Source: Thauera sp. 28 | Lineage (GTDB): Bacteria > Pseudomonadota > Gammaproteobacteria > Burkholderiales > Rhodocyclaceae | NCBI RefSeq assembly: GCF_000310145.2 | Contig: NZ_AMXA01000010.1 | Coordinates: forward strand, 62,001 to 126,000 | Reading direction: 5' to 3' | DNA: 64,000 nt | Shown here: positions 1,357 through 57,491 of the stretch, piece after piece | How positions within the stretch are numbered: position 1 is the first letter of the stretch | How the letters are laid out: every line of letters begins with the position of its first letter | The notes under the pieces: generated by a model | What the model was told of the DNA's origin: nothing | The model's input: the letters and a program-made list of their open reading frames with translations, nothing else | The model's database searches: none | Made by a program: the position numbers and the translations under genes

Positions 1357-3744
<2,388 letters not shown>

Positions 3745-3872
3745 GGGCGGAATACGGCCTCTAGGCGCTGGAGAGGGGGAGGGGCCGGATAGTGCAACAG
3801 GCAGCGCGCGAAGATCAACCGCGATTGCGTGATTGTGTGGGCGTGATTGCGGCCAGCGTGGCCGGGTGTCGA

Positions 3873-3878
3873 TACAAT
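3873..3878 (+). promoter_or_regulatory. Possible -10 box upstream of ygiQ
   Basis: TACAAT lies 11 bases before the chosen ygiQ start, in the tex-ygiQ divergent gap. No good -35 box is seen at 16-18 bases. If used, the transcript would have almost no leader, or translation would begin further downstream (for instance at the ATG at 4003). Confidence 0.3.
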
Positions 3879-3888
3879 GGCGCCCATC

Positions 3889-35841: not shown

Positions 35842-37242
35842 TTGAAAAGCGCTCTCTTCGTCGATTTCGACAACGTTTACTCCGGCCTCCGCAAGCTCGA
35901 CCAAACCATCGCCGACCGCTTCGCCCGCCAACCGCTGGAGTGGATGAACTGGATCATCAATGAACTCGAGTTGCCAGACCACACGCCCGACGGCGCGCGA
36001 CGGCGCGTCCTGGTCAGGCGCTGCTACCTGAATCCACAGGCGTACCAGCGCTTCCGGCCCTCCTTCAATCTTGCCGGCTTCGAGATCATCGACTGTCCCG
36101 CGCTTACGAGCGAGGGCAAGACCAGCACCGATATCCACATGGTGCTCGACATCATTGACCTCCTCCAACACGAGACCCATTACGACGAGTTCATCGTCTT
36201 CTCGGCGGACGCCGACTTCACGCCCGTTCTGCGCAAGCTGAGGCGGTGGGATCGTCGCACGACGGTGCTGGCAATCGGCTTTCCATCAGCGGCGTATCGC
36301 GCCTCTGCCGACCTTCTGATCGATCAGGATGAGTTCGTCCGCAATGCACTTGGCTTCAAGGACGAGGACGAGCCACCGGTCACGGAATCCGTGGTGGCCC
36401 CGCCGAAGCCAGCGTCGGATGCCAGCACCTTGTCAGCCGCTGCGCGGGTGCTCGTGGAGGAAACGGTCCGAGAATCTGCTGTCGCCGTGCCCATGGCGAA
36501 GGTTGCAGCGCACATCTTGGACACCCTGGAGGGAATGGACGCATCGACCTGGGCGGGCCATGGGAGCTTTCGAGGGCTCATCGAATCTTGGGATGCCGAC
36601 TCGGTTCGTTTCACCACGGCGGGAGGCGGCGTAATCTACGATCCACGCCGCCACACCGCCCCGACCGCAACACCCGTCGCCAGTGCAAAGCCGCTTGACC
36701 GAGATACCGACAGCGTGACCGAGGCCATACGAAAGGAAGTCGCGCGATCCTCCACCGTCGTCCCCTGCAGTCGCCTCGCCAAGCACCTCACGGAGATGTT
36801 CAGCACTATCGCAGCGGACTGGAATGGCAAGGGCAGCTTCCGAAAATACGTCGAAGGTCTCGATCTCGCGCCACTGTGCTTCGATTGGACCAGCGGAGGC
36901 GGGGTGATCTACGACCCAACTCGGCCCGAAGCACGCACTCGAAACGGGAACGGCACGACCGACTGGGGTAACGATCGGGACATCTTCGTCGTCGCCACCC
37001 AGATCCATGAGGTCTCGGACGCGCCCCTGCTCAGGCCGAACGATTACCGCGCGCTGTTTTCGATCATCGAACAGGACACCCGCTCGCACCCGTTCGATCT
37101 CAAGGAAACTGGCAAGCGCGTTCGCGATGGTCTGCGAGAGCGCGGGCTCGGGGGAAGCCGCCTCGACGTCAACTGGGTTTTACGCGGTCTGCTCATGCGT
37201 GGTCATGTTTTCGGCAAAGTGTTGGCGCCGGCCGAAAACTGA
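35842..37242 (+). CDS. NYN-domain RNase-like protein with two LOTUS-type domains, 3' end replaced by IS21
   Basis: A 466-residue protein starting at TTG (MKSALFVDFDNVYSGL). Residues 1-170 are a NYN/PIN-like nuclease domain: D8 and D10, the acidic TSTDIHMVLDIIDLL and FSADADFTPVLRKL motifs. Two LOTUS/OST-HTH-like modules follow, each ending in a GGGVIYDP motif (about 200-275 and 295-360). A third, similar start (PLLRPNDYRALFSIIEQ, about 390) leads to the C-terminus. The last seven residues and the stop codon lie inside the terminal repeat of the adjoining IS21 element, so the original C-terminus is lost. NYN-LOTUS proteins are predicted RNA-processing enzymes. Confidence 0.85.
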   Translation: MKSALFVDFDNVYSGLRKLDQTIADRFARQPLEWMNWIINELELPDHTPDGARRRVLVRRCYLNPQAYQRFRPSFNLAGFEIIDCPALTSEGKTSTDIHMVLDIIDLLQHETHYDEFIVFSADADFTPVLRKLRRWDRRTTVLAIGFPSAAYRASADLLIDQDEFVRNALGFKDEDEPPVTESVVAPPKPASDASTLSAAARVLVEETVRESAVAVPMAKVAAHILDTLEGMDASTWAGHGSFRGLIESWDADSVRFTTAGGGVIYDPRRHTAPTATPVASAKPLDRDTDSVTEAIRKEVARSSTVVPCSRLAKHLTEMFSTIAADWNGKGSFRKYVEGLDLAPLCFDWTSGGGVIYDPTRPEARTRNGNGTTDWGNDRDIFVVATQIHEVSDAPLLRPNDYRALFSIIEQDTRSHPFDLKETGKRVRDGLRERGLGGSRLDVNWVLRGLLMRGHVFGKVLAPAEN

Positions 37243-39841: not shown

Positions 39842-40550
39842 CACCGGGCTCCGTCACCAGCCCGGGTCTTGCGGTGTCGAACTCCGTGTCCGACACGGCG
39901 AGAAAACGGTCGGCGCCCGCGCGGAAGCCGTAGCCGGCGTGAAAGAAGACAATTAGAGCGTCCTGCACCGGCAGTGACGGCTGGGGCTGCGCGCCATCGG
40001 GTTCCACAGTAATGCCCACACGTCGAATCGACGCGGCCACCTCGTCTGGAGTGGAAACGCAAATTGCCTCGATCGACGCCAGAACGGACGCCCGCGTCGG
40101 ATCGCGCAGCGTTTGCACGTTGAATCCGCTCGCAGACGGCGCTTGGGGGATGGGTGGCCGAGGAATACGTCACCGTTCATGTCGGACGAAATGAACGGCC
40201 GCTGACTGCCGTTGGTGGCTTTCGCGACCTGGGTCGTCGTCTGGGAGAGCGCCACCCACAACGAGATGTTGGGCGACTGCAGTTCCCGCAGCAAGGTGCC
40301 AGTGTAGGGCGAGTGGCTATCCGCGCCACTGTCCATCGCCAACTGGCCGGGCGATTTGGCGTAGGCCGCGATCTGTCCGCTAGTCGATGCTCCCAGTCCT
40401 CCCCCGCTGCGATGTCGCTGCGGTCCAGGTAGCCCTCGAACTGCAGCAACTTGAGTGCAGTGACCAGTTCCTCGGCCAGCGTGCCGCAGTCCTGCCGGGC
40501 ATAGGACACGAACACCTTCGGGGCGATCTTCGCTGCAATGTCCAAGGTCC
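39842..40550 (-). pseudogene. Decayed TIR/caspase-like gene, cut by IS21
   Basis: On the minus strand, from about 40545, a TIR domain starts (PKVFVSYARQDCGTLAEELV, then YLDRSDIAAGEDWEHRL) and stops after about 50 residues. The frame then shifts to a caspase-like C-terminal part (AAYAKSPGQLAMDSG; HSPYTGTLLRELQSP; QRPFISSDMNGDVFLG), and shifts again to a second caspase-like start (DALIVFFHAGYGFRAGADRF, where FAGHG would be expected). It is ended by the IS21 right end. Frame breaks, missing parts of both domains and the lost GHG histidine show it is dead. TIR and caspase-like domains occur together in bacterial immune proteins. Confidence 0.65.
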
Positions 40551-41191
40551 GCCCTCCTGCGCGTTGGCGCCCCCTCTGCAAGGGCACGGTCAACTTTGGT
40601 CCACGTCCAGGCGCGGGTCCAGCCCGTCGAAATATGTCTCGGCCCGCCAGGGGCGTTCGATTACGCGACTTCAGCAGGCCGAAAACAGCGCGCTCGCCCG
40701 AGAGCGAACTTCAGTCAGTCAACGGCATTTCGGGCCATAACGGGACGCCAGATCGCCGGCTTGGTCATCGGTTGCAAGAACATACACAATCAGCCGGAAG
40801 CAGCAGTGGCCGTTAGTTTCACTTGCAGGCCGATGGAGCTCGTCTATGTTGAAGTAATGGCGTGATACAAGGTTCCCGTCCGGGAGAGGTCCGCAATCCT
40901 CATTTTTCTTTTCGAACCCTTAGCTAGAAATCCTGCCGAGACGAATATCGCATCACTTCGACTATTGCAACGTCCGAAGTGCCCCTGACTTTCGTCTTTA
41001 CTGATTGATGGATAAAACATGGCAAGTAGGCAACTCCTCGCTGTCGCCAACTATTGGCTTCTCGAGATCGGTAAATATAACAAATGAAGAAACTCGCGCC
41101 GCATTAGAAGTCAAAACCAATATCTCTTAAGATTGAATCGCGCATTAGTACCGCAACTCCGATTACTCGCGATTAGGCGGAGGAGAGAGCT
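40551..41191. other. Gap with no recognised gene
   Basis: About 640 bases. The first part is GC-rich and may be more decayed sequence of the TIR gene; from about 40870 the composition turns AT-rich, like the CHAT operon that follows, and probably holds its promoter. Confidence 0.5.
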
Positions 41192-42136
41192 ATGATTCGC
41201 ACGAGACATCCATCACTATTGATTTTCATTGCGGCGATCTTCGTGTCGTCATCTAGTTTCGCGCAGGGCATCATCGAGCAGAAAAGATGCCCAAATGCAG
41301 AAAAGGGGCATCACGATGGTAATGGTGGTGGGTATTCGGACCAATTTACCTACGAGTCTTGGGTTGACGACGACATGGATCGGGACGGTAGGTATTTCCG
41401 GCGATGCATTGAAAACAAAGCATCGAAGAGTATCTGGACTCATTGGAAGGGAGTGCTTTCTAGCAGTTGGATTCCAGTTGAGCATCGCCTATTCGGTTCC
41501 ACATTCATCACTAGAGGGGAGGTTGATAATAGCAAAACCGATCTCTGGTGGGGAGATAATAGGAGCCAAAGGTTAGTTGCAGAGGCGAGGTGTTACAAAG
41601 GAGAGGACGCCTGCAAGGGAGCCAAGACCTCAAGAGTCGGGCAGTTTATGATGGTTCAATGGTCGGGCTCTATCGGCCGGGCTTTTAGTCTCTCGGAAGA
41701 ACTCGCGAGCGCGCTGGACTCGAAGAAGGACTTCGCCGTTCACTCCTACCAAGAGTTCTTTGTATCCTCTGACGGACAAAGTCAAAATGCGAATCTTTCT
41801 AAGATTGCACTCAGTGTAAGTAGCCGATTAAATGCAGGCGAGTTGGCTTACTCCGTCCGCGTACAGACATCGGTTGGACTATCACTGAAGAACTCGGAGG
41901 AGACTCTTTTTCGTCTTAGCGTGGCTGATAGCAAGTTTTCGAAAATGGTTCCGATCGATGAAATTAGATTCACCAATTATTTGCTAAACTGGGCATCAGG
42001 CCGACGTATTGATGTCATGAAGGAAGTCAAGTTCAGGCCAAGCCGTATTTTCGCTCGCATGATTAGCATCGACGTGATCGACTCTTCCGAGGTTGTTATT
42101 GCCTCGATACCCATGACTGTCCTTGAGGGTGAGTAA
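41192..42136 (+). CDS. Secreted protein of unknown function, partner of CHAT protease
   Basis: A 314-residue protein with a clear signal peptide (LLIFIAAIFVSSSSFAQG, cut likely after residue 24-25, no lipobox cysteine), so periplasmic or secreted. The mature part has four to five cysteines, many tryptophans near the start (ESWVDDDMDRDGRYFRRC; WTHWKG; LWWGDNRSQ), and is beta-rich later. No family recognised. Base composition is lower in GC than the core genome. GGAGGAGAGAG precedes the start. Its stop overlaps the start of the CHAT gene (GTGAGTAA), so the two are translationally coupled and likely work together. Confidence 0.8.
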   Translation: MIRTRHPSLLIFIAAIFVSSSSFAQGIIEQKRCPNAEKGHHDGNGGGYSDQFTYESWVDDDMDRDGRYFRRCIENKASKSIWTHWKGVLSSSWIPVEHRLFGSTFITRGEVDNSKTDLWWGDNRSQRLVAEARCYKGEDACKGAKTSRVGQFMMVQWSGSIGRAFSLSEELASALDSKKDFAVHSYQEFFVSSDGQSQNANLSKIALSVSSRLNAGELAYSVRVQTSVGLSLKNSEETLFRLSVADSKFSKMVPIDEIRFTNYLLNWASGRRIDVMKEVKFRPSRIFARMISIDVIDSSEVVIASIPMTVLEGE

Positions 42137-43235
42137 GTTGCCTCGGTCCGCCCCCTCACTACGTGACCTTATTTTTGGGTGGCCTAATTGGGCGCTGCCG
42201 GGAATTCTCTCACTACTTTCCCCATGGCTTGCTCATGTTATGAGGCTGCCTCTTATCAGCGATTGGTACCAACCACATCTCAATTCCGCAACCAGTGCCT
42301 TGGTAGCTGTCGTTTTTCTTTGCGCCTATGCTTTACTTTTCAGAGAATCCGAGAAGGCTAAGAGAGCTTGGCTTTTGCGAGTTGTATCGGTCTTCATTGG
42401 TTCTTTTGTTGTTTGTCTTCTTACTCCAGTTCTACTCAGTCAAGGTTGGGAGATCCCAACTCTGATCGTGGATCTCATAAACTTGATGCATGTTCTCTTA
42501 TATGTCGTGTTATTTTCCGCATTTTCTGTAGGGCTGATGATTGCATTTCTCCTTAGCGCATCTGTTTATAGAAAATCGAAGAAATTCGATAAACCTGCTG
42601 AGAATGATACAGAGAATGCGCACTCTGAAAGGAGAATCCTTGTGCTGTTCTTGGGAGCAAATCCTAAGGACACAAGCAGACTGAGGCTTGATGAGGAGGT
42701 CCGGAGTATCGACGAGGCTCTCAGAATGGCGTCACAGCGTGATAAACTGGAGATCGTACAACACTGGGCTGTACGAGTTTCCGACTTACAAAGTTGCCTT
42801 CTTCGTTACAGTCCTGACATTCTGCATTTTAGTGGACACGCGAGTGCCGCTAACGGAATCCTCATAGAGGATCAGAGTGGAAACGGCCGACCTGTGTCTA
42901 CAGACGCGTTGCGTAAATTGTTTTCGATATTCAAGGGAAAGGTACGGTGCATAGTGCTCAATGCGTGTTATTCCGAGCAACAAGCTCGCGCTATCGCGCA
43001 GGAGATTGACTGCGTTATCGGAAATTCGGAGGCAATAGAAGATCAAGCCGCGATTACTTTTGCAGCAGGGTTTTACGAAGCAATCGGGCATGGGAAAGAT
43101 ATACATACTGCATATGAGTTGGGCTGTAGTCGTTTGCAAATGGAGTGGCCCAGTGAGCGCACGACGCCGAAATTGATAGCTGTGAATGTCGACCCCAAGG
43201 ACGTCTTGCTCGTACCAAAGCCTAAAGCGACATGA
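42129..43235 (+). CDS. Membrane-anchored CHAT-domain protease
   Basis: A 368-residue protein. The N-terminal 150 residues hold about four hydrophobic helices (around 15-40, 52-72, 83-107 and 118-145). The cytoplasmic C-terminal half is a CHAT domain, a caspase-like cysteine protease: strand RILVLFLGANPKDTSRLRLD, catalytic histidine H237 in ILHFSGHASA, catalytic cysteine C280 in CIVLNACYSEQQA, then GNSEAIEDQAAITFAAGFY. Both catalytic residues are intact. The GTG start at 42129 overlaps the upstream stop; a TTG at 42123 is an alternative. CHAT proteases act as effectors in bacterial conflict systems; membrane anchoring plus a secreted partner is an unusual layout. Confidence 0.87.
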   Translation: MSKLPRSAPSLRDLIFGWPNWALPGILSLLSPWLAHVMRLPLISDWYQPHLNSATSALVAVVFLCAYALLFRESEKAKRAWLLRVVSVFIGSFVVCLLTPVLLSQGWEIPTLIVDLINLMHVLLYVVLFSAFSVGLMIAFLLSASVYRKSKKFDKPAENDTENAHSERRILVLFLGANPKDTSRLRLDEEVRSIDEALRMASQRDKLEIVQHWAVRVSDLQSCLLRYSPDILHFSGHASAANGILIEDQSGNGRPVSTDALRKLFSIFKGKVRCIVLNACYSEQQARAIAQEIDCVIGNSEAIEDQAAITFAAGFYEAIGHGKDIHTAYELGCSRLQMEWPSERTTPKLIAVNVDPKDVLLVPKPKAT

Positions 43236-44847: not shown

Positions 44848-45642
44848 ATGTCTTCGAGAATCCAGCAGGGACCCGCCTCAACAACTCAACGAAGGCAGGG
44901 AATTCGAAAAGCCTGCTGTGATGTAGTGGAAGTGACCTACGGCGATGCTCTTCAGGCACTCCTTGACGGGAACTTGCCCGCAGATTTCGCTGGCTGGGGG
45001 CTTCGTGAGCCACGCCGCCCTTTCAATGGTGGACCGCATACCTTGGCGCACTATGCAGCGAGGCGAGGACTACTTCCCGATGGCTTTGAATGTTGGGGCC
45101 TTGTAAACGGTCGTGGAGAGACCGTCGCACATGTTGCGCTTGAGCGCGGTCCGCTGCCGTCCAGTTTCGACCGCTGGGAACTGAAGGGAGCCTTTTATGA
45201 ACCTGTTGCGCATGTCGCAGCGAAGACTGGGCGTCTCCCACAAGGCTTCTGGCTCTGGGAACTGATGAATGACTACGGCAATACGGTCGCTCATTCTGCA
45301 GCCTACGCGGGTCGGTTGCCTAAAGACTTCGATCGCTGGGAACTGAGAGCCGCTGACCTGTCAACAGTCGCTCACGCATCTGCGTTTGCTGGAAACCTGC
45401 CCGAGCGCTTCTCAGCCTGGCACCTACGAGACGGCTTCGGAGAAACAGTTGCTAGCCTGGCACTGCGTCATTGTCGCATGGGGAGTGAGTACGCCCGGCG
45501 TTACGCCGCTTATCAAGCCGCAAGACTTGCGGACGCCATCGAGGTGGAGCGCCGGGATAATAAAGGGATGGCTGGCATTGCGAGTAAGCCGGCTTGCATT
45601 TCCCCTTGCAAGTCCGCAATTGCGCGAGATAGTGGTCCTTAA
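44848..45642 (+). CDS. 27-residue-repeat protein (ankyrin-like), five repeats
   Basis: A 264-residue protein of unknown role. After an N-cap (VEVTYGDALQALLDGNLPAD) it has five tandem repeats, mostly exactly 27 residues, with consensus TVAHxAAxxGxLPxxFxxWxL then D/NxxG (from about residue 56 to 195). The first half resembles ankyrin helix 1 (TPLHxAAxxG), but ankyrin repeats are 33 long and the second half differs. A helical C-cap with RRYAAYQAARLADAI ends the repeat domain. Two relatives lie at 54297 and 56409. The true start may be a GTG near 44923, which would match the N-terminus of the 54297 protein. A small gene overlaps its end. Confidence 0.75.
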   Translation: MSSRIQQGPASTTQRRQGIRKACCDVVEVTYGDALQALLDGNLPADFAGWGLREPRRPFNGGPHTLAHYAARRGLLPDGFECWGLVNGRGETVAHVALERGPLPSSFDRWELKGAFYEPVAHVAAKTGRLPQGFWLWELMNDYGNTVAHSAAYAGRLPKDFDRWELRAADLSTVAHASAFAGNLPERFSAWHLRDGFGETVASLALRHCRMGSEYARRYAAYQAARLADAIEVERRDNKGMAGIASKPACISPCKSAIARDSGP

Positions 45643-46705: not shown

Positions 46706-46933
46706 GTGTCCGAACGGGGCGTCGATGGTCGTGCAGCCAAGCGCACGGATGATCAGAGGTACATGAAGGAAGTCGAGGCCCTACGTGAGGCTGCCCATTT
46801 CCTGGCCTCTGCAGGCTCTGAGCTCGAGTCACTGCGTCTAGAGCTTGCGGTCCTTACGGTAACTGGTGAGCGCCGTTCGAGGGCATCCCCCGGTGACATC
46901 CGTCCCCAGAAGGTCCGTCGTCGAGAGCTTTAG
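46706..46933 (+). CDS. Unknown 75-residue protein
   Basis: A GTG-started frame with a helical, heptad-like middle (MKEVEALREAAHFLASAGSE, then LESLRLELAVLTVTGERR) and a basic tail (IRPQKVRRREL). No family recognised. Its stop codon lies in the 8-base target site of the IS66 element, so the insertion just spares the coding region. Confidence 0.5.
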   Translation: MSERGVDGRAAKRTDDQRYMKEVEALREAAHFLASAGSELESLRLELAVLTVTGERRSRASPGDIRPQKVRRREL

Positions 46934-47023
46934 GGTAAGCGTCCGCCCAATGCCGTCTTCCCTTCAGCGTAGCTGTCGCTGACGATCACCCCCTCGGAGG
47001 GGGCACCCAACTTTGTGCCCACA

Positions 47024-47413
47024 ATGGATTTCATGGACACAAATTTGGACCAACGCCCGCATCGCGACCTGCGCGGCCCATACCGCCGCCATTCGATCGA
47101 TTTCAAGCGCACCGTCGTCGAACAGTCGCTGCAGCCGGGCGCCTCCGTGTCGCGTCTCGCGCGCCAACACGACGTCAACGCCAACCAGATCTTCGCGTGG
47201 CGCAAGGCCTACCAGGAAGGTCGCCTGGGGGTGGCTGCGTTCGTGCCGATCATCCTCGCCGACACCGACGATGAGGACGCGCCCGAGATGCTCGATACCC
47301 CAGCGGCCGCGTTCGGTCGGCTGACGATCGAGCGCAAGGGCGCACGGCTGACTGTCGAAGGACGTCCCGACGCCCAGGTGCTCGCGCAGGTTCTCGCGGT
47401 ACTGCTGCGGTGA
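47024..47413 (+). CDS. tnpA: IS66 accessory protein TnpA
   Basis: A 129-residue protein with an N-terminal helix-turn-helix (FKRTVVEQSLQPGASVSRLA, then RQHDVNANQIFAWRK), as in IS66 OrfA. Needed with TnpB for transposition in studied elements. Starts at 47015 (GTG) or 47033 are also possible. Its end overlaps tnpB by 4 bases. Confidence 0.88.
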   Translation: MDFMDTNLDQRPHRDLRGPYRRHSIDFKRTVVEQSLQPGASVSRLARQHDVNANQIFAWRKAYQEGRLGVAAFVPIILADTDDEDAPEMLDTPAAAFGRLTIERKGARLTVEGRPDAQVLAQVLAVLLR

Positions 47414-47754
47414 TCGTCCCGCCTGCGGGCACGCGGATCTGGATCGCAGCCGGGATCACCGACATGCGGCGCGGCTTCGACGGCCTGGCCGCGCTCGTTC
47501 AGACCCAACTCCAAGCCGATCCCTTCAGCGGACAGATCTTCGTGTTCCGGGGCCGGCGTGGAGATCGGATCAAGGTGCTGTGGTGGGACGGCGACGGGCC
47601 GTGCCTGTTCGCCAAGCGGCTCGAGCACGGTAAATTCGTCTGGCCGCAGGTGACTCATGGGACCGTGGCGCTGACGCCGGCCCAGTTGTCGATGCTGCTC
47701 GAGGGCATCGACTGGCGGCGTCCGGTCAGAACGGCGCCGAATCGCGCTGCATAG
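47410..47754 (+). CDS. tnpB: IS66 accessory protein TnpB
   Basis: The 114-residue IS66 Orf2 family protein, recognised by GITDMRRGFDGLAALVQ and GDRIKVLWWDGDGPCLFAKR. It begins at GTG overlapping the tnpA stop. Function in transposition is required but not biochemically defined. Confidence 0.93.
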   Translation: MIVPPAGTRIWIAAGITDMRRGFDGLAALVQTQLQADPFSGQIFVFRGRRGDRIKVLWWDGDGPCLFAKRLEHGKFVWPQVTHGTVALTPAQLSMLLEGIDWRRPVRTAPNRAA

Positions 47755-47820
47755 CGGCTTATAGGAGCTTTTTAGCGTCATTTGGCGGCTTTTGGCGGCA
47801 TGCTCCGGTATCATGTCGCC

Positions 47821-49341
47821 ATGTCGAACACCCCTGTTTCCTCTCCTGACGAAGTCATCGCCCTGCGGGCGAAGGTGAGCGAACAGGCCGCCGAGATCGA
47901 GCACCTGAAGCTGGTGATCGCCAAGCTGCGCCGCATGCAGTTCGGCCGCAGCTCGGAGCAGATGAACGAGATGCTCGGCCAGTTGGAGCTCTCGCTCGAG
48001 GAGCTCGAGACCCTGCGTGCCGAGACCCCGGCCGAACCGCCCGCGCCAGCCGATATGCGCGAGGTGCCCCCGCCCCGCAAACCGCTCCCCGATCATCTGC
48101 CACGCGACATTGAGGAGCACCTGCCTTCGGCGTGCGACTGCCCAGCCTGTGGCACCTCGCTCAAGAAGCTGGGCGAGACCGTCAGCGAGATGCTCGAGTA
48201 CGTGCCGGCGAGCTTCCGGGTGATCCGTCATGTGCGCCCGAAGTTCGCCTGCAGCCGCTGCGACACGATCGTGCAGGCGAACGCGCCCGCGCGACCGATC
48301 GCCCGGGGGCTGGCCGGCGCGGGGCTCCTGGCCCATGTGCTGGTCGCGAAGTATTGCGATCACCTGCCGCTGTACCGCCAGAGCACCATCTACGCTCGGG
48401 AGGGTGTCGAACTCGAGCGCTCCACGCTGGCCGACTGGGTGGGGCAATGCAATGCGCTGCTGCGCCCGTTGGTCGAGGCGCTGCGCAAGCATGTGCTCTC
48501 GGCCACCAAGCTGCATGCCGACGACACCCCGGTGCCGGTGCTCTCGCCGGGTGAAGGCCAGACCCGGACCGGTCGGTTGTGGACCTACGTGCGCGATGAC
48601 CGCCCTGCAGGCGATGAGACACCCCCTGCCGTGTGGTTCGCCTACTCGCCCAATCGCCGGGGCGAGCACCCGCAACGCCACCTCGCGCGCTTCAAGGGCG
48701 TGCTGCAGGCAGATGCCTTTGCCGGATTCGCGCCGCTCTATCTGGGCGGGGCCATCCAGGAGGCCGCCTGCTGGGCACATGTGCGGCGCAAGTTCTACGA
48801 TCTGCACAAGACGCAGGCCTCGCCCCTGGCGGCCGAGGCGCTCAAGCAGATCGGCCTGCTGTACGCGGTTGAAGAGGCGATTCGCGGCAAACCGCCCGAA
48901 CTGCGCCGGGCCGAGCGGCAGGCGCGCGCTGGCCCCGTGCTGGTCGCGCTACGCGCCTGGTTCGACGCCACGCTCAAACAACTCTCGCAGAAATCGGCAT
49001 TGGCCGAGGCGATCCGCTATGCGCTCGCCCGCTGGGACGCGCTCGTGCGCTACAGCACCGACGGGCGCATCGAGATCGACAACAACGCCGCCGAACGGGC
49101 GCTGCGCACGGTCGCCCTGGGTCGGAAGAATTTCCTCTTCGGGGGCTCCAACGCCGGGGGCGAGCGTGCGGCGGCGATCTACAGCCTGATCGGCTCGGCC
49201 AAGCTCAACGGCCTCGACCCCGAGGCCTACCTGCGTCATGTGATCGGCCGCATCGCCGAGCATCCGGTCAATCGTGTCGATGAGCTGTTGCCGTGGAAGG
49301 TCGAGCTGAAGGTGCCGGCTCCCGAACAGAAGGCCGCCTGA
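47821..49341 (+). CDS. tnpC: IS66 transposase TnpC
   Basis: A 506-residue DDE transposase. It has a leucine-zipper-like N-terminus ([20 protein letters not shown]), a zinc-finger region ([25 protein letters not shown]), and the catalytic core: first Asp in [13 protein letters not shown], second in LQADAFAGF, and Glu after [16 protein letters not shown]. Starts at 47782 and 47800 are possible; 47821 fits the family. The stop overlaps the passenger start (ATGA). Confidence 0.94.
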
Positions 49342-49598
49342 TGAAGTATCCCGCCGTCGACCCGCTGGCAGCGCTCAAGAACGTGGACTGGCTGATATCA
49401 AATGGGGGCCAGATCTCGCTCGGCGCTGTCGGCCCGGTTGAGTGTGCCGCAGTGGCCAGTGACGAGAGTGAATGCCTGGCGATGCTACAGCGCCGCGATG
49501 GTGAATCCCTCTACCAGCTTCTGACCCGCCTCGATGCCGCCATCGCCCGCGCATGGAATGAGGGCGAGTTCACCGACGAGATCAACCCGGACTGCTGA
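49341..49598 (+). CDS. IS66 passenger protein, 85 residues
   Basis: A small protein (LAALKNVDWLISNGGQISLG; LLTRLDAAIARAWNEGEF) coupled to tnpC by an ATGA overlap and located inside the right inverted repeat. Similar short genes accompany many IS66 elements; role unknown. Confidence 0.75.
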   Translation: MKYPAVDPLAALKNVDWLISNGGQISLGAVGPVECAAVASDESECLAMLQRRDGESLYQLLTRLDAAIARAWNEGEFTDEINPDC

Positions 49599-49701
49599 AT
49601 AACTGGCAAGACGGCGATCGTCGGACGCTTACGCTTTAGGCAACGTGGTCTGGTAGATGCGAAAACCAAGAACCTGAAAATTTAAAAGAACACGAAATCT
49701 C

Positions 49702-49735
49702 TTAAGAAAAAACTTGCATTGGTTTTAAAAATGAT
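49702..49735 (+). promoter_or_regulatory. Shared promoter-like element before the polymerase operon
   Basis: TTAAGAAAAAACTTG at 49702-49716, then CATTGG and an AT-rich stretch. The same 15 bases occur at 55551. It lies 150 bases before the first gene and just inside the IS66 right flank, so the insertion has left it intact. CTTG(AC) would serve as part of a -35 box. Confidence 0.5.
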
Positions 49736-49866
49736 TTAGGCTCTCTTCATCTTATAGAGGAGGGGAGATTGTTTTACATCGGAAGAAAGGATGTAGTCTT
49801 TAGGGAATTTGGTGTCGTCAGGGCAGTCGATTCGCGCTCCGTCGGGCAGCGGAACGGGAGGCTGTC

Positions 49867-51282
49867 ATGAGCACGCGGCACGGTTTCTTGTCAGCAGATT
49901 TTATCGATCATCTTCATTCAAACGTGCCGGAGTACGCGAAGCTGACCCGGCGTCAGCAGTGGGCGCTGGCCGATATGCTGTGGTGCAGCTCCTCAAAGGC
50001 GCGTAGGCATAGCATTCTCGAAGATTTTCAGAGCTTCCATTACGCAGAGCTTGAGAACTGGTTCGGTCGAGAGGGCTTCTCCCGGATCAATGAGCGGCTG
50101 CAGATCTTTGATGTAACCCCAAACTGGTTCTATGAGGAAGGTGCAACTAAGGGGTATCGGTTGCGTCCTAAATTCCAGCGCATTCTGGATAGCTACTTCC
50201 TTGACCCTGGCTCGTCGCCATCCTACTTGGTGACAGGGAACCTTCGCGCGATCAAGAAGTTCCGGGCGGCAGTTGCATCTACGGACATGCGTGGCTCCAA
50301 GGCTACGGAATGGCCTTGCGGGAGCTTTCTGAACTGCGTTCCGGTCCGGGTTGATATGCTTGAGTCTCTGCATGCAGGTTTGAGCGAAAAATTTCGTTCC
50401 TCTTGCGATCAAGGGTCAGGTGAAGGTAGCGAGACCATTAGGCGTCTTCTCCTTTCGGCCGCTTGTGCAATCCGTCTCTCGACATCGCTCTCTGCACGGC
50501 CTGGTTTCATGCCCCATCTCTATGTTGAAGCTGAAAGCGGCCGTCTCTATGCACGAGGGCTGAGTCTTCAGAATGCCCCGAGAATTGTGAAACGGGCAGC
50601 CTTGTATGGGCTCTGGGATTACGACTTTTCTAACTGCCACTTCACTATCTTTGCCCAGATGAGCGAGAGGAATGGCTACAGGACTGAAGCCATTCAGGAC
50701 TACCTCAGCAGAAAGGCAGAAATCCGCCAGAGCATTGCTCAACAAGCTTCAATCTCAGTCGAGCAGGCCAAGCAGTGCTTGATCGCAGTCATGTACGGAG
50801 CATCAACAACGCTCTGGTATAACAATGCGATCCCCAGGGAGATCGGACAGGACGCTGCCGCACGCTTGTTTGCAGTGCCGTTTTTCAAAGACTTGGTCAG
50901 AGACATCTATAGGGGGCGCGAGGTCATTCTTAATGAGCGACCTCGAACAGCCAACTGGCGACTCCCCAACGCTATGGGGAAGGCGATCAAGTTCGAGAAG
51001 AGCAAACCGATGCGTGCGATTGCCCATCTGATTCAAGGTGTTGAAGCCCTTGCGCTTAAGAGTACGCTCGAGCTCTACAACGATGAGATCGTCCTTCTTC
51101 AGCATGATGGATTTGCCGCACATAGCCGCTTGGATAGGCTGAAGATTGAGCAGTACGTAGAAAATCGTACAGGATACAGGCTCACGCTTGATGAAAAGAG
51201 GATTGGTTTTAATTCCAGTGAGCTTGATGTGCTGGTTGAGGGAACCCATCAGAATCAAAAACAAGAGGCTTGCAAAACATGA
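49867..51282 (+). CDS. Small family A polymerase-like protein
   Basis: A 471-residue protein that appears to hold a Pol I-type palm. Candidate motif A is LWDYDFSNCHFTIFAQM (catalytic D253), motif B is AKQCLIAVMYGAS (K302 and Y310-G311, the same 8-residue spacing as K758 and Y766 of E. coli Pol I), motif C is VLLQHDGFAAH (D414). A-to-B (49) and B-to-C (112) spacings are near those of Pol I (53 and 124). The motif B arginine is not conserved and motif C has HDG where HDE is usual. Residues 50-115 look like a winged helix (ELENWFGREGFSRINERLQI), as in replication initiators. No exonuclease domain is present. GGGAGG precedes ATG. Its stop overlaps the next start. Confidence 0.6.
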   Translation: MSTRHGFLSADFIDHLHSNVPEYAKLTRRQQWALADMLWCSSSKARRHSILEDFQSFHYAELENWFGREGFSRINERLQIFDVTPNWFYEEGATKGYRLRPKFQRILDSYFLDPGSSPSYLVTGNLRAIKKFRAAVASTDMRGSKATEWPCGSFLNCVPVRVDMLESLHAGLSEKFRSSCDQGSGEGSETIRRLLLSAACAIRLSTSLSARPGFMPHLYVEAESGRLYARGLSLQNAPRIVKRAALYGLWDYDFSNCHFTIFAQMSERNGYRTEAIQDYLSRKAEIRQSIAQQASISVEQAKQCLIAVMYGASTTLWYNNAIPREIGQDAAARLFAVPFFKDLVRDIYRGREVILNERPRTANWRLPNAMGKAIKFEKSKPMRAIAHLIQGVEALALKSTLELYNDEIVLLQHDGFAAHSRLDRLKIEQYVENRTGYRLTLDEKRIGFNSSELDVLVEGTHQNQKQEACKT

Positions 51283-51506
51283 GTAGTTATATCACTTTTT
51301 CAAGCCGAAATAATCTTCTTGCGCAAGTTAGTAGGTATCCTGTTCCTCGGGTAGTGGCGCCCCTGTGGCCCTCTCCCTCCTCCTCCTTCGCTTCTCTCGT
51401 CCGTGCTGTTTGCAATTTCGATCCTGTTCGACATGGTTTCTATCTTCACTCACGTCTCGAAGATCCGATAGGGCGGTTTTCTAATCGGAGGGTGGGAGAT
51501 GCTTGA
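51279..51506 (+). CDS. 75-residue coupled protein of unknown function
   Basis: Starts by ATGA overlap with the polymerase-like gene and ends by an 8-base overlap with the AAA+ gene, so it is clearly a translated member of the operon. Sequence is proline/serine-rich in the middle (VVAPLWPSPSSSFASLVRAV) and basic at the end. No family or motif recognised. It might bridge the polymerase and the ATPase. Confidence 0.6.
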   Translation: MSSYITFSSRNNLLAQVSRYPVPRVVAPLWPSPSSSFASLVRAVCNFDPVRHGFYLHSRLEDPIGRFSNRRVGDA

Positions 51507-52680
51507 GGCTAGGGCACGAGATGATGGGGGCTATGTCCCTACGAAGTTTTTCAATGAGCGTGGTCAATCCATTCTTCTTCCGCGAGAAGCGGCGCGGCGG
51601 ATCGCCGAAGAGAAGGTCAAGGCGCGCCAAGCCGAGCAGAAGGAACTGGAAGACAGGCGGCAGGAGGAGAGCGGGGATGTAGAGGTGGCTGGAGAGGGGG
51701 AGTGCGCGCCGTTGCAAAGTGACGCCCCTCCTGGACCTATGCGTCAGATCTTCGACCTCGTCGCGTTCTCGGGCGTCATCGAGATGCGTGGCAAAAGTGA
51801 TCGGGAGCGGCGCGAACAGCTACAAGGCTGGGAGAAGCTGATGCGCAGGCATCGGGGGCGCCGCGCTGTTCGCCAATTTCCCCACCGCCTGGACTCGCTT
51901 CGGGAACGTTTTCCGAACTTCGCGCGTGTCGTGGATGCAATTGAGGCGCTGGTCGCTGTCAGTTCCGACCTTGCGCACGGACTGGTGGTAGAGCCGCTGT
52001 TGATGGTCGGCCCTCCAGGCGTCGGGAAAACGCTCTTTGTCGAGGCACTGGCTGAGGCTGTTGGGGTCGACATGGCATCCATCCCGCTCGGTGCGGCGCA
52101 GGGTGGTTTTCAGGTTGTGGGAACGTCCACCCACTGGTCGAACAGCTCCCCGGGCCAGGTTTGGAAGCTTTTGGCCTCGGGCGACTTCGCAAACGGCGTG
52201 TTGCTGCTCGATGAGATCGACAAGATGAGCGGTGACTCCAGGTACAGCACGGAGAGCTCGCTGCTTGACCTCCTTGACCCCCGGACGGCCAAGCGTTTCG
52301 AAGACCAGGCCGTGGACATCGCCTTTGACGCATCGGCGTTGTGGAAGCTGGCTACGGCAAATGAGCTCGGGACCCTGTCGAAGCCGATCAAGAGTCGGTT
52401 CGAGATCGTTGAAATCAAGCCGCCAACTGCTAGCGAATTGGCCGAGATCTATCGGCGGCAGTGGCTCGCCCATTGTGAAGGGCACCCGAGTGCGCCGGAA
52501 CTGAGTCGGGCGGTCTTGGAGAGGATGGCCAGTGAGCGGATCTCGCCCCGTGAGGCCAGCCGGCGCTTGCGTTTCACCCTCGGGGCGGCGATCCGGGATG
52601 GACTTGGCCGTGTAGATGCTCTTTTCGAGATCGCCGGAGGATCGAAGAAGGGCGCGAGGATCGGGTTTGTGACCGAGTAG
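51499..52680 (+). CDS. Lon-like AAA+ ATPase without protease domain
   Basis: A 393-residue protein. The first 70 residues are charged (LPREAARRIAEEKVKARQAE). The AAA+ module has Walker A GPPGVGKT (171-178), Walker B LLLDEIDK (235-242) and sensor 1 LATANEL. The segment DEIDKMSGDSRYSTESSLLD followed by LLDPRTAKRFEDQ is very like Lon (LLEVLDPEQN, F.DHYL), as is the C-terminal lid. The Lon N-terminal and Ser-Lys protease domains are absent, so it likely unfolds or remodels a partner rather than cutting it. It is third in the polymerase operon. Confidence 0.85.
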   Translation: MLEARARDDGGYVPTKFFNERGQSILLPREAARRIAEEKVKARQAEQKELEDRRQEESGDVEVAGEGECAPLQSDAPPGPMRQIFDLVAFSGVIEMRGKSDRERREQLQGWEKLMRRHRGRRAVRQFPHRLDSLRERFPNFARVVDAIEALVAVSSDLAHGLVVEPLLMVGPPGVGKTLFVEALAEAVGVDMASIPLGAAQGGFQVVGTSTHWSNSSPGQVWKLLASGDFANGVLLLDEIDKMSGDSRYSTESSLLDLLDPRTAKRFEDQAVDIAFDASALWKLATANELGTLSKPIKSRFEIVEIKPPTASELAEIYRRQWLAHCEGHPSAPELSRAVLERMASERISPREASRRLRFTLGAAIRDGLGRVDALFEIAGGSKKGARIGFVTE

Positions 52681-52829
52681 TTGCTCGGCCGTCAAGCTTT
52701 CGGCTCAATAACGGTGGCAGCCTTATCGATGCCCTAAAAAAGATGATTCTTGGGCTCTATCTATTGAATCGAAAAGTAAAGGGTGTTCCAGGATTAAAGG
52801 CGCGACGATCAATACTAAACTGGGATCCT

Positions 52830-53513
52830 ATGATGCTGAGAATCACTGAGGGCGGTCTTGTCGAGAAGTATCCTCTGATCTTTCAGGATCGTTATGCATC
52901 AGTGAGAAATAGCTGCATGGCTTTTGGGATTGAGTGTGGTCCCGGTTGGTATCCGATCCTCGATGTACTGTTTGATAAAATAACTAAATATTGCGAAGAG
53001 GTTCGATTTCCATCACCGAAGGCGCTTCAGATCAAAGAGAAATTTGGAAACCTCCGCGTCTACATGGACGTCACGACGCCCTACATCGATGGCTTGATCT
53101 GGATGGCTGAGAGCATTACAGACTCGACCTGTGAGGTTTGCGGCGGGCCGGCGAGGCTGATGGGTTTCGAAGCGGGCTGGCTGGAGGTCCGTTGTCCGGA
53201 CCACAGCCGTATCAAGGCTGGGGCTGCTGCCTCGAGGAATGCGGTCGGCAGCGTTCCAAAGACGATCACGGATCGGCCGCCCTACGAGCGCCGTGTTCCT
53301 GCTTATACGAAGGATGGAGAGTCGATCGCCCTTCTGGACGTCTTGAACGTTGCGCTCATCAGCTACTGCGAGTCGAGAAAGGGCGCGGACGTTAAGGTCA
53401 AAGAGGTCCGGATTGAAGATGGCAGCATGCTCTTCGATGCGGAGGGCGTCGATGAAGAGGCGCAGGGGATCATGGATATGGCCGCAGCTTTCTGGAGGAC
53501 GACGAGCGCTTGA
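52830..53513 (+). CDS. Zinc-ribbon protein, copy 1
   Basis: A 227-residue protein paralogous to its downstream neighbour: GGLVEKYPLIFQ, ECGPGWYPILDVLFDKIT, ALQIKEKFGNLRVYMD, then a C-x2-C...C-x2-H metal site (CEVCGG and RCPDH). I recall this plan (CGDGW...KEKFGxLRFY...CExCG) from a widespread family of uncharacterised bacterial proteins. The C-terminal half has SIALLDVLNVALISYCESR. The start at 52830 matches copy 2 and has GGGA upstream; a start at 52743 would add 29 basic residues. Its stop overlaps copy 2 (TTGA). Confidence 0.7.
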   Translation: MMLRITEGGLVEKYPLIFQDRYASVRNSCMAFGIECGPGWYPILDVLFDKITKYCEEVRFPSPKALQIKEKFGNLRVYMDVTTPYIDGLIWMAESITDSTCEVCGGPARLMGFEAGWLEVRCPDHSRIKAGAAASRNAVGSVPKTITDRPPYERRVPAYTKDGESIALLDVLNVALISYCESRKGADVKVKEVRIEDGSMLFDAEGVDEEAQGIMDMAAAFWRTTSA

Positions 53514-54148
53514 ACGATCTCATTCAAGATGGCCTGCTCGCCCGGTATCCGGAGATCCTCGGCAGCCTGGCCGACGGCATCCAGTGCGACGACGGTTGGC
53601 TGGATCTGCTCGATGCCCTGTTCGATGAGATCACGAGGCAGTGCATGAGCGTTGGGATCCCACTTCCAAGAGCTCGTAAGGTCAAGGAAAAAACCGGCTC
53701 GCTTCGCTGCTACCTCTCTTCCAAAGATGATTTCATAGTCGGCCTGGTTCAGATGGCTGAGGAGATCTCGGGGAGGACCTGCGAGGTATGCGGAGAGGCC
53801 GGTGTAATGGACGTACAGGACAACGTGGTTCAGGTGCGGTGCCTTCTTCATGGAGGCCGAAGCGGGGCTGATCGCAATCGCATGACGACGATCTGGCGCT
53901 TTGATCCCAACAGGCCAGCCTCGTTAGTGCGAAGGGTGCCTGGAACAACGGAGGAGGGGGCCGAGCTTTGGGTCCTTGATCTGTTGAACGAGGTCGCGGA
54001 TGACTACTGCGTGAAGCGGGCGACGGGATTTCGCGCGAACGCTGTTCGTGGGGGTGATGGCCTTCGGTTCGACGCAGCGAATGCCGACCAGCGGCTTCAG
54101 GGGATGATGGCAATGACCTCGGCGTTCTGGAAGCGGCGGTCGCCGTGA
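53510..54148 (+). CDS. Zinc-ribbon protein, copy 2
   Basis: A 212-residue paralogue of the preceding protein, with the same blocks: DGLLARYPEILGSLADGIQC, DDGWLDLLDALFDEIT, ARKVKEKTGSLRCYLS, and the metal site CEVCGE (C91, C94) with RCLLH (C111, H114). The C-terminal half also matches (ELWVLDLLNEVADDYCVKR). It starts at TTG overlapping the upstream stop. Tandem paralogues kept intact and coupled suggest a heterodimer. Function unknown. Confidence 0.75.
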   Translation: MNDLIQDGLLARYPEILGSLADGIQCDDGWLDLLDALFDEITRQCMSVGIPLPRARKVKEKTGSLRCYLSSKDDFIVGLVQMAEEISGRTCEVCGEAGVMDVQDNVVQVRCLLHGGRSGADRNRMTTIWRFDPNRPASLVRRVPGTTEEGAELWVLDLLNEVADDYCVKRATGFRANAVRGGDGLRFDAANADQRLQGMMAMTSAFWKRRSP

Positions 54149-54300
54149 GCTTCTTCGTGTTGTTTCAGGGTTCCGACCGCGTTGTGCACCCTGACAACGA
54201 TCAACCGATTGAGATGAGGCTCCGTACGCAGCGTATGCCGAAAGAGGTCCTCTGCTGGAGAGGGGGTTTTAGCCCGACCGCAATCCCTGTTTACCCGTGA
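54145..54300 (+). CDS. 51-residue coupled protein
   Basis: GTGA overlaps link it to both neighbours: its GTG overlaps the stop of zinc-ribbon copy 2 and its own stop overlaps the GTG of the repeat gene. The sequence (FFVLFQGSDRVVHPDNDQPI, then EMRLRTQRMPKEV) has no known motif. The double overlap is the main support for it being real. Confidence 0.5.
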   Translation: MSFFVLFQGSDRVVHPDNDQPIEMRLRTQRMPKEVLCWRGGFSPTAIPVYP

Positions 54301-54701
54301 GGGCCACTGTGACCTACAACGAAGCGCTACTCCATCTGACCGGTCGCACGCTCCCATCTGACTTCTCGGATTGGGGGCTCAAGGACGAGCGAGGGGCGCC
54401 GCTTGCCCATTTTGCAGCCATGCATGGATTGCTGCCGGCGGGGTTCGAGCACTGGGATCTCGCGAATGAGTTCGGAGTCACGACGCTTCGCGTGCTGCTC
54501 GGTGTCGGCGCAGATGTTCCGGATGGGTTCGAAGACTGGGCGAGGCTCGTCGACGGAGAGCGCACCGTTATTGAGGTGGCCCGTGCTCTTGGAAATCGGC
54601 GACTCGTTGCGAAATTCGAGGCCTGGAAACTGGCTCACAATATCGCCAAAGACACCTCCAGCCTGCTGTCTCGCCCGTTGATCACTCGGGATGCCGTGTG
54701 A
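54297..54701 (+). CDS. Short 27-residue-repeat protein
   Basis: A 134-residue member of the repeat family. It has the N-cap VTYNEALLHLTGRTLPSDFS, one full 27-residue repeat (PLAHFAAMHGLLPAGFEHWD), one degenerate repeat (GADVPDGFEDWARL) and the C-cap VIEVARALGNRRLVAKFEAW. The C-cap matches the end of the 56409 protein (VIELARILEIGGVIAKYDAY). It is last in the overlapping run of genes that starts at 52830. Confidence 0.75.
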   Translation: MRATVTYNEALLHLTGRTLPSDFSDWGLKDERGAPLAHFAAMHGLLPAGFEHWDLANEFGVTTLRVLLGVGADVPDGFEDWARLVDGERTVIEVARALGNRRLVAKFEAWKLAHNIAKDTSSLLSRPLITRDAV

Positions 54702-56408: not shown

Positions 56409-57491
56409 ATGAATAATATATTTGAAGTTAAGTGTAGAAAGTTTGATGGGAAAGACGGGTTAGGCCTGAGTTTCGATGAACTTGTTGAGAAGTTGAATAA
56501 TAGTTCTTTTGCGGAAGACCTGGCTCCTGAGATTTGGGGCTTGCGAGGTCGCGATCCCTTTTTGTTGGATTCTGTAGATTCTGAAGTTACGCTTGCGCAC
56601 ATAGCCGCACTGTACAATCGTTTGCCCGCCAGTTTTAGTTTATGGGGGCTCGTGGATGACAATGGCTGGACGGTGGCCCATGCCGCTGCTGCAATGGGCG
56701 TATTGCCTGATGATTTTCAAGATTGGAGCTTTGCGGACAAGGACGGAACCACTGTGGCCCATGTGGCTGCTGAGGAAGGGCTGTTACCAGATGGCTTTTC
56801 AATGTGGGATTTGCGCGATCTAAAAGGCGCTACAGTCGCTCACGTTGCCGCAAGAAACGCGAATTTGCCTTCTGGGTTCTCTCAGTGGCAACTAGCGGAC
56901 AATCGTGGACGCACCGTCGCGCATGAAGCGGCAGCATATGGTTCCCTTCCCGAAAGTTTTCAAGACTGGAGGTTGGCTGACTCCGATGGTTGGACTCTTG
57001 CACATGAGGCGGCTGAGGTTGGTCTTCTTCCTCGGGAGTTCGATGGCTGGGATTGGGCAACAAAGTCAGGGGTTACGGTTGCACATGCCGCTACAATCGG
57101 AACAATACATCCCGCTGATTTTCGCTTTTGGAGCCTTCCTGATATAAACGGAAATACTGTGGCTCATAAAGCTGCGAAGCATGGAACTTTGCCAACTGGA
57201 TTCACCCGCTGGGGTCTAGTGAACAATAAGAAAGAGACGGTGGCTCACGCTTATCTGCTTGCAGCTAAAGAACGTTGCGGTCGGGGAGAGTTCAGCCATA
57301 GAATTGAGTTTCCGGACAACTTTGAGGATTGGGATGCGGTAACAGATGAGGGTGTTAGCGTTATAGAGTTAGCTCGCATCTTAGAGATTGGAGGGGTTAT
57401 TGCAAAATATGATGCCTACAAAATAGAACAGTATATTGCCGAAGGAGGGAGGCCTTGGCGTGTTGGAAGTGTATTGAGAAAGGAGGTCTAA
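56409..57491 (+). CDS. 27-residue-repeat protein (ankyrin-like), eight full repeats
   Basis: A 360-residue protein made almost wholly of tandem repeats. After an N-cap (LSFDELVEKLNNSSFAEDLA) eight repeats of exactly 27 residues run from about residue 60 to 275, e.g. TVAHVAAEEGLLPDGFSMWD, TVAHEAAAYGSLPESFQDWR, TVAHKAAKHGTLPTGFTRWG. A ninth is degenerate, with an insertion, and a C-cap follows (VIELARILEIGGVIAKYDAY). No signal peptide or membrane helix is seen, so it should be a cytoplasmic solenoid for protein binding. GC is lower than in the core genome. Relatives at 44848 and 54297. Confidence 0.82.
   Translation: MNNIFEVKCRKFDGKDGLGLSFDELVEKLNNSSFAEDLAPEIWGLRGRDPFLLDSVDSEVTLAHIAALYNRLPASFSLWGLVDDNGWTVAHAAAAMGVLPDDFQDWSFADKDGTTVAHVAAEEGLLPDGFSMWDLRDLKGATVAHVAARNANLPSGFSQWQLADNRGRTVAHEAAAYGSLPESFQDWRLADSDGWTLAHEAAEVGLLPREFDGWDWATKSGVTVAHAATIGTIHPADFRFWSLPDINGNTVAHKAAKHGTLPTGFTRWGLVNNKKETVAHAYLLAAKERCGRGEFSHRIEFPDNFEDWDAVTDEGVSVIELARILEIGGVIAKYDAYKIEQYIAEGGRPWRVGSVLRKEV

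Follow-up and report, generated by a model that had tools for sequence, protein, structure and literature searches.

What does the open reading frame at positions 49867 to 51282 (forward strand) of the 64,000-nucleotide stretch of Thauera sp. 28 DNA analysed here, called the window below, encode, and what would its product copy? A reading made from the sequence alone had proposed a minimal family A polymerase of 471 residues. The frame is real: it starts with ATG and runs uninterrupted through 471 codons to its stop, open from end to end, and a Shine-Dalgarno-like GGGAGG (49856-49861, forward strand) lies five bases 5′ of the ATG. The source genome carries a single copy of this gene, plus a normal DNA polymerase I (Pol I).

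We compared the family of this protein with bacterial Pol I by profile-profile alignment, a check that the sequence-only reading had proposed. Aligning 23 family rows with 49 Pol I rows in hhalign gave a probability of 96.6 and an E-value of 6.3e-10 over 191 columns, compared to 0.57 for the reversed control; smaller runs gave 3e-4 (14 and 20 rows, respectively) and 7.8e-6 (18 family rows). The motifs fall in register, with D253 on the D of DYSQIE, K302 and Y310-G311 on motif B, and HDG on HDE. Two extra family A signatures are in register as well (SGRLYA..LQNAP with TGRLSS..LQNIP, and LIQG with MQG). The same check had provided for phage-type RNA polymerases, and kinship to them is unsupported: three family alignments against four phage enzymes gave E-values of 0.04 to 0.34, compared to 0.08 to 0.46 for their reversed controls.

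The predicted model, built from 12 sequences, has a pLDDT of 87 and a pTM of 0.85. Searching it against the PDB with Foldseek returned 112 matches at an E-value of 0.001 or better and 346 at 10 or better. The best 50 of these 346 are all family A polymerases (50/50), headed by the Klenow fragment (E = 7.3e-9), and the TM-scores within these best 50 of 346 are modest (0.38-0.45 by query and 0.25-0.38 by target). Against a viral library, the top two matches are uncharacterised phage proteins, and virophage replication proteins and phage Pol I appear within the first 13. The predicted secondary structure assigns D253 to a strand (250-254), K302 to a helix (298-309) and H413-D414 to a turn that links two strands (408-411 and 415-418), which is the placement of the catalytic residues in Pol I. 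The Pol I profile alignment with its reversed control and the Foldseek comparison of the model thus bear out the proposal, and the computations show that the window gene encodes a minimal family A fold with its catalytic residues intact.

Weaker evidence, drawn from the same sequences as the profile alignment, points the same way. With a family HMM, the top score among 217 other six-frame open reading frames is 4.3 bits; 22 of the 49 Pol I sequences exceed it, two tie with it and 25 neither beat nor tie it. The 217 frames are 222 minus five family members, include a divPolA2 gene, and many of them need not be genes. The reverse search with a Pol I HMM gave E-values of 1.6 for the window protein (P0001) and 0.012 for the best relative (P0002), and a core profile matched DNA polymerase nu best among PDB sequences (E = 0.077). 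Single-sequence searches of Pfam, NCBIfam and the PDB with P0001 returned no family A match, and neither did a four-row profile run against the PDB. In PHROG, P0001 matches families of unknown function (0.007 and 0.038), with phrog_34692 not matched, and phage sequences gave no blastn match to Pol I DNA.

All residues named in the sequence-only reading are found at their numbers (D253, K302-x7-Y310-G311 and H413-D414-G415). On the forward strand, motif A (DYDFSNCHFTI, 50617-50649) contains the catalytic D253 and also H258, which sits at the place of Pol I E710; motif B (50770-50799) comprises K302-x7-Y310-G311; and motif C (QHDGF, 51100-51114) contains the catalytic D414. The motif B arginine is absent, as had been read, because V298 occupies the position four residues before K302, and no exonuclease domain was recognised in the protein with Pfam or NCBIfam. 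Upstream of motif A lie R226 (50542-50544, forward strand), the conserved beta-hairpin arginine of SGRLYA, and before the palm two long helices (residues 162-182 and 185-205; 50350-50481, forward strand) that form the predicted thumb. The winged-helix-like N-terminus of the earlier reading stands in part: DSSP of the model predicts for residues 28-99 (49948-50163, forward strand) the order helix-strand-helix-helix-strand-strand, which is that of winged helices, but no winged-helix profile matched the N-terminus (Pfam for 13 members; PDB).

We surveyed these positions across 23 aligned rows. D253, K302, E393, H413, D414 and G415 are identical in all 23, Q390 is kept in 20, and R226 is identical in the 22 rows with a letter there, one row being gapped. 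Twelve of the rows are the window protein and rows from motif-pattern scans, which favour the motifs by construction; the other 11 (P0002, P0003, L003, L008-L010 and L077-L081) came from tblastn or HMM searches, and they retain the key residues of all three motifs. The survey includes the partial L015 and L017, and it omits the partial L020 and L022, L012 because its protein is the same as that of L006, and L082, a tblastn/HMM match (E = 8e-4) with HDA as motif C. The distance from motif A to motif B is 49 in all 12 closer sequences. At the position of the RxxxK arginine, four before the lysine, R is present in 1/23 rows. The place of Pol I E710, five residues after the motif A aspartate, holds His in 17 rows, Gln in four, Val in one and Asn in one, and Glu in none of the 23; the 11 tblastn/HMM rows show the same residues (H 5, Q 4, V 1, N 1). 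The place of Pol I F762 holds Phe in one row and Leu, Ile or another residue in 22.

The family is rare. With tblastn, two Polaromonas plasmids gave relatives of 36% and 34% identity, and one phage type, represented by two records, gave another; more queries reached Ma-LMM01-like cyanophages, a Vibrio phage and a Deinococcus plasmid. A non-exhaustive motif-pattern scan of 84,980 species' genomes yielded 12 loci, each with a betaproteobacterial title, and a scan of viral contigs yielded two; scanning the viral contigs with the pattern of P0001 alone gave no match. The gene occurs in 2 of 297 genomes of its own family and 7 of 398 of its phylum (16-row core profile; one of the seven is weak, at E = 8e-4), the source genome included in both counts, and in 1 of 369 genomes of its class, which is the source genome itself (three-row profile). 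In a tree, the 23 family rows separate from Pol I (4 of the 49 sequences used), while 10 of 24 inner branches are left open and long branches make the inner placements unsure.

Current annotation overlooks this polymerase. On both Polaromonas plasmids, for example, the relatives are annotated as 'Clp protease N-terminal domain-containing protein' and 'hypothetical protein'. For P0002, the 'Clp_N' match falls below the cut-off (E = 0.00083) and spans 31 residues between motifs B and C, and the label was rejected. In the accessible text of the Polaromonas plasmid paper (PMC6015842; supplements aside), none of three passages with 'polymerase' concerns this gene and 'primase' is absent. Separately, a relative of 767 residues at L003:9191-11494, present in both Nitratidesulfovibrio phage SRB7757 and Desulfovibrio phage 7757, is unannotated; its ribose-gate position is occupied by Val.

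We examined the relatives' surroundings for genes that accompany the polymerase. Four plasmid-like sequences (L001, L002, L017 and the 4.6-kb contig L011) carry a serine-type recombinase and, immediately upstream of the polymerase, a gene some 123-126 codons long; for L017, the upstream gene is seen on the opposite end of its 11,937-base contig. Three of the upstream proteins were scanned against phrog_378 ('single strand DNA binding protein'), giving E-values of 3.2e-5 and 0.0057 and one without a match, and a single-sequence model of the upstream protein (pLDDT 40) did not confirm an OB fold. This partner gene was found neither in the source genome nor in 10 of the 12 relatives' genomes searched, a search that took in neither L003, L008-L010 nor L077-L083, and an all-against-all comparison found none on the circle L023. 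Both Polaromonas plasmids (L001 and L002) carry their own RepA and the L017 plasmid has a RepA relative, and thus these plasmids encode a replication protein besides the polymerase.

Two of these elements are circles. The L017 contig (also L091; G731:C38, 11,937 bases) belongs to a Rhodoferax ferrireducens MAG, and its ends overlap by 91 bases, which closes it into a circular plasmid with relatives of RepA, ParA and the serine recombinase, the SSB-like gene and the polymerase. L023 (L023:1-10864) is a 10,809-bp circle by its 55-base end repeat and carries terminase, portal, protease, head protein and ParA genes together with the polymerase; no tail gene was recognised among the ten other open reading frames scanned. 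Satellites are known that make heads and borrow tails, and L023 recalls them but is plasmid-like.

Other relatives have mobility or defence genes nearby. In L019, an excisionase-like gene lies just before the polymerase and type I restriction genes follow it, and L021 has homologues of both; L018 and L021 share homologous integrase-like genes near the polymerase (by eye), and AbiE genes lie near it in L018. A defence role was considered and rejected: PADLOC returned no match for the polymerase or two relatives, despite the AbiE genes of L018 and the type I restriction genes of L019 and L021.

The window gene itself lies in an island of its own. The GC content is 48-59% over 40-58 kb (2-kb windows, those of IS66 aside) compared to 64-70% over the first 33 kb, and transposase genes flank the polymerase region on either side. 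An IS66-family insertion sequence (46935-49632, forward strand), recognised by IS66 TnpB and transposase profiles and by its inverted ends, is bordered by an exact 8-bp duplication, GCTTTAGG, at 46927-46934 and 49633-49640; its matching ends and this duplication indicate that it is probably a recent arrival. Downstream, an AAA+ ATPase gene of Lon type (51499-52680, forward strand; PF00004 E = 1.8e-15), whose link to the polymerase is uncertain, also matches Lon below the cut-off (E = 1.2e-27, NCBIfam) and a clamp-loader PHROG (E = 2.7e-10). The 'uncharacterised operon' of the sequence-only reading is not borne out: since the IS66 copy ends 234 bp before the polymerase start codon and the AAA+ gene begins 216 bp after its stop, the polymerase gene is intact with no visible operon. 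An AAA+ relative (33% identity) lies near the polymerase in L016; across 16 loci and plasmids, several of them incomplete, this arrangement is seen in 2.

Several features of these surroundings were observed in passing. In L016:7764-13125, the AAA+ gene precedes the polymerase and its C-terminal part recurs behind the polymerase; frames resembling transposases (by eye) flank the polymerase on both sides. The window's island also contains defence-like genes at 40177-43235 and 35842-37242, including CHAT-domain and NYN-domain proteins and a short fragment resembling TIR, which matches PADLOC ThsB at E = 2.9e-4 and, below the cut-off, NCBIfam Thoeris ThcB4 at E = 9.4e-9. Three genes with 'LPxxFxxWxL'-like repeats (by eye) are spread across it (44848-45642, 54297-54701 and 56409-57491), two of which are ankyrin-like by Pfam, weakly or clearly, and two adjacent genes at 52743-54148 are apparent paralogues (by eye) with no Pfam match.

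We consider that the window gene encodes a primase-polymerase of mobile elements, of the TV-Pol kind, and that this copy, though intact, has been left stranded in an island that is eroding, with a probability of roughly 0.7. The proposed architecture would join an N-terminal domain ordered like a winged helix to a predicted thumb of two helices and a palm-fingers core, in which D253 and D414 would bind two metal ions for template-directed DNA synthesis. Starts without a primer may be made together with the ssDNA-binding partner, or with the enzyme's own N-terminal domain gripping the single-stranded template. We infer priming because CcPol-MP is a proven primase and because an ssDNA-binding-like gene neighbours the polymerase on the plasmid relatives. 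The role would be element replication or second-strand synthesis, and the window copy may no longer serve a moving element. The relatives' context and the CcPol-MP precedent support, by analogy, an element-specific and possibly self-priming role, and the relatives probably initiate and perform the copying of the plasmids, islands and phages that carry them; use of NTPs by the polymerase is a speculative addition.

A wider reading goes further and is rather doubtful. Here the family would be a distinct proteobacterial, self-priming branch of family A without the usual ribose gate, which would begin strands from NTPs or dNTPs while either its own DNA-binding N-terminal domain or the SSB partner grips the ssDNA, and which would be the replicase of the elements that carry it, from plasmids and defence islands to the 10.8-kb circle with phage head genes.

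Several other mechanisms would account for the gene, and they are not all mutually exclusive. The polymerase could be a primer-dependent enzyme that repairs the element or fills its gaps, with an active palm and no priming, while the SSB merely shields the template; we regard this as a minority possibility that deserves to be taken seriously. CcPol by itself extends primers only (PMC7581432), a repair role is one option given for the phage divPolA2 (PMC11348598), and the partner gene is missing from most of the relatives' genomes searched (10/12). Yet the host already has its own Pol I, the family is sporadic (the 2/297 and 7/398 genomes above, own genome counted), and several relatives lie on plasmids, in phages or next to integrase-like genes.

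Alternatively, the protein could be an RNA-making or ribonucleotide-tolerant primase or polymerase, which appears unlikely. Pol I rejects ribose by E710 and F762, and CcPol, which prefers dNTPs, keeps both (PMC7581432), whereas both ribose-rejecting residues are altered in the family (His, Gln, Asn or Val in 23/23 rows at the first place, non-Phe in 22/23 at the second). A histidine at the E710 place could, however, still block the 2′-OH; the family's profile is close to that of Pol I, with no such closeness to T7-type RNA polymerase (only four RNA polymerase sequences compared); and no RNA polymerase is found in the best 50 of the 346 PDB matches.

The gene could also be a non-functional relic of a decaying island, a reading to which we give a low probability. 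The IS66 copy with its perfect 8-bp duplication ends 234 bp upstream, and no long open frame was found just before IS66 in the three plus-strand frames. No consensus promoter-like site was found at 49600-51520, where 1.1 would be expected by chance, and tblastn probes with the relatives' partner, recombinase and integrase found nothing convincing in the window. However, the 471-codon frame remains open with its catalytic residues retained, and the promoter scan covered a single promoter type. Finally, a chance resemblance of motifs in an unrelated protein, for which the lack of a curated family match (Pfam, NCBIfam) might speak, is highly improbable, as it is contradicted by Foldseek and the Pol I profile alignment and also by the HMM scores and the residues conserved in 23/23 rows.

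If the family does consist of primase-polymerases of mobile elements, it would matter beyond this locus. Nearly all known primases belong to the DnaG-like or the archaeo-eukaryotic class (PMC10061031). The branch offers a compact candidate on small plasmids, where the need for the polymerase is testable, and the absence of the ribose gate and of the motif B arginine would allow the family A residues that serve priming and sugar choice to be tested directly. The plasmid relatives also suggest that a polymerase is paired with an ssDNA-binding gene outside Bacillota, while the 2023 survey drew its examples from Bacillota only (PMC10061031).

Among known systems, the T7-type RNA polymerases share K-x7-YG and an HD motif with the window protein, with no significant profile match to the four phage sequences. 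Two other divergent phage family A groups have been described, including divPolA2 of tailed phages, which resembles the family in its divergent family A palm, its lack of an exonuclease and its own N-terminal domain (PMC11348598). Membership in divPolA2 was rejected with one example (AUR84708), which scores an E-value of 27 against the family HMM, no better than other open reading frames, and has FDE for HDG. Bacterial Pol I has the same palm-fingers core and motif order; compared to it, the window protein is about half the size (most of the Pol I sequences compared have 877-879 residues), has no recognised exonuclease, carries HDG in place of HDE, and is without the motif B arginine and the ribose-gate glutamate.

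The CcPol-MP and PolA-SSB systems provide a functional precedent. Priming by CcPol together with MP has been proven, and D169A and D324A abolish the activity (Bebel 2020, PMC7581432). Like the family, these systems have a family A catalytic protein, of which CcPol retains part of an exonuclease domain only, and like the plasmid relatives they have a small ssDNA-binding partner gene and a serine recombinase on the element (PMC7581432, PMC10061031). They also differ: CcPol is far closer to Pol I than the family is, and the partner gene of PolA-SSB pairs, whose examples in Rice 2023 all come from Bacillota, lies between the polymerase and a helicase, whereas on the plasmid relatives it lies before the polymerase (PMC7581432, PMC10061031). 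Pfam recognised no helicase beside the window gene, and none is annotated on L001 or L002; L006 has a helicase-like frame (by eye) at 3432-6107 on the opposite strand. CcPol-MP has been counted among the TV-Pol polymerases, and its authors wrote in 2020 that they were aware of no other characterised TV-Pol (PMC7581432).

TV-Pol was defined in 2008 by Iyer, Abhiman and Aravind, who predicted primase-polymerase activity and named Ma-LMM01 as a holder (PMC2579912). The plan noted from the sequence alone is borne out as that of a minimal polymerase, but of a kind that had already been described. TV-Pols have 400-600 residues, as the window protein does, and like the family they are often stand-alone and nuclease-free, with a beta-hairpin arginine, two palm aspartates and a fingers lysine; they occur on mobile elements with a resolvase or integrase, as relatives of the window protein do (PMC2579912). 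In the family, the arginine is R226, the predicted helices before the palm may correspond to the TV-Pol two-helix thumb, and linked recombinases are present on the plasmid relatives, while the only such genes among the scanned open reading frames of the window are insertion-sequence transposases. A D5-type helicase, which a subset of TV-Pols has, was found neither among the scanned window neighbours nor in the annotation of the two Polaromonas plasmids. Unlike TV-Pol, the family has no RxxxK arginine in 22/23 rows. Its motif C is HDG in 23/23, and the ssDNA-binding-like neighbour gene of the plasmid relatives is absent from the text of the TV-Pol paper (PMC2579912). Homology to a named TV-Pol runs through P0002: Ma-LMM01 gp030, which likewise has no arginine four residues before the lysine, matches P0002 at an E-value of 6e-5, and P0002 matches phrog_34692, the family of gp030, at 1.1e-5. 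From the neighbouring transposase genes, we infer that gp030 is the Ma-LMM01 protein meant in 2008. The window protein looks like a TV-Pol, though the defining RxxxK arginine is not there, and, judged by its alignments, the family is a TV-Pol-like branch without that arginine and the ribose-gate glutamate, within a kind of polymerase already known as TV-Pol.
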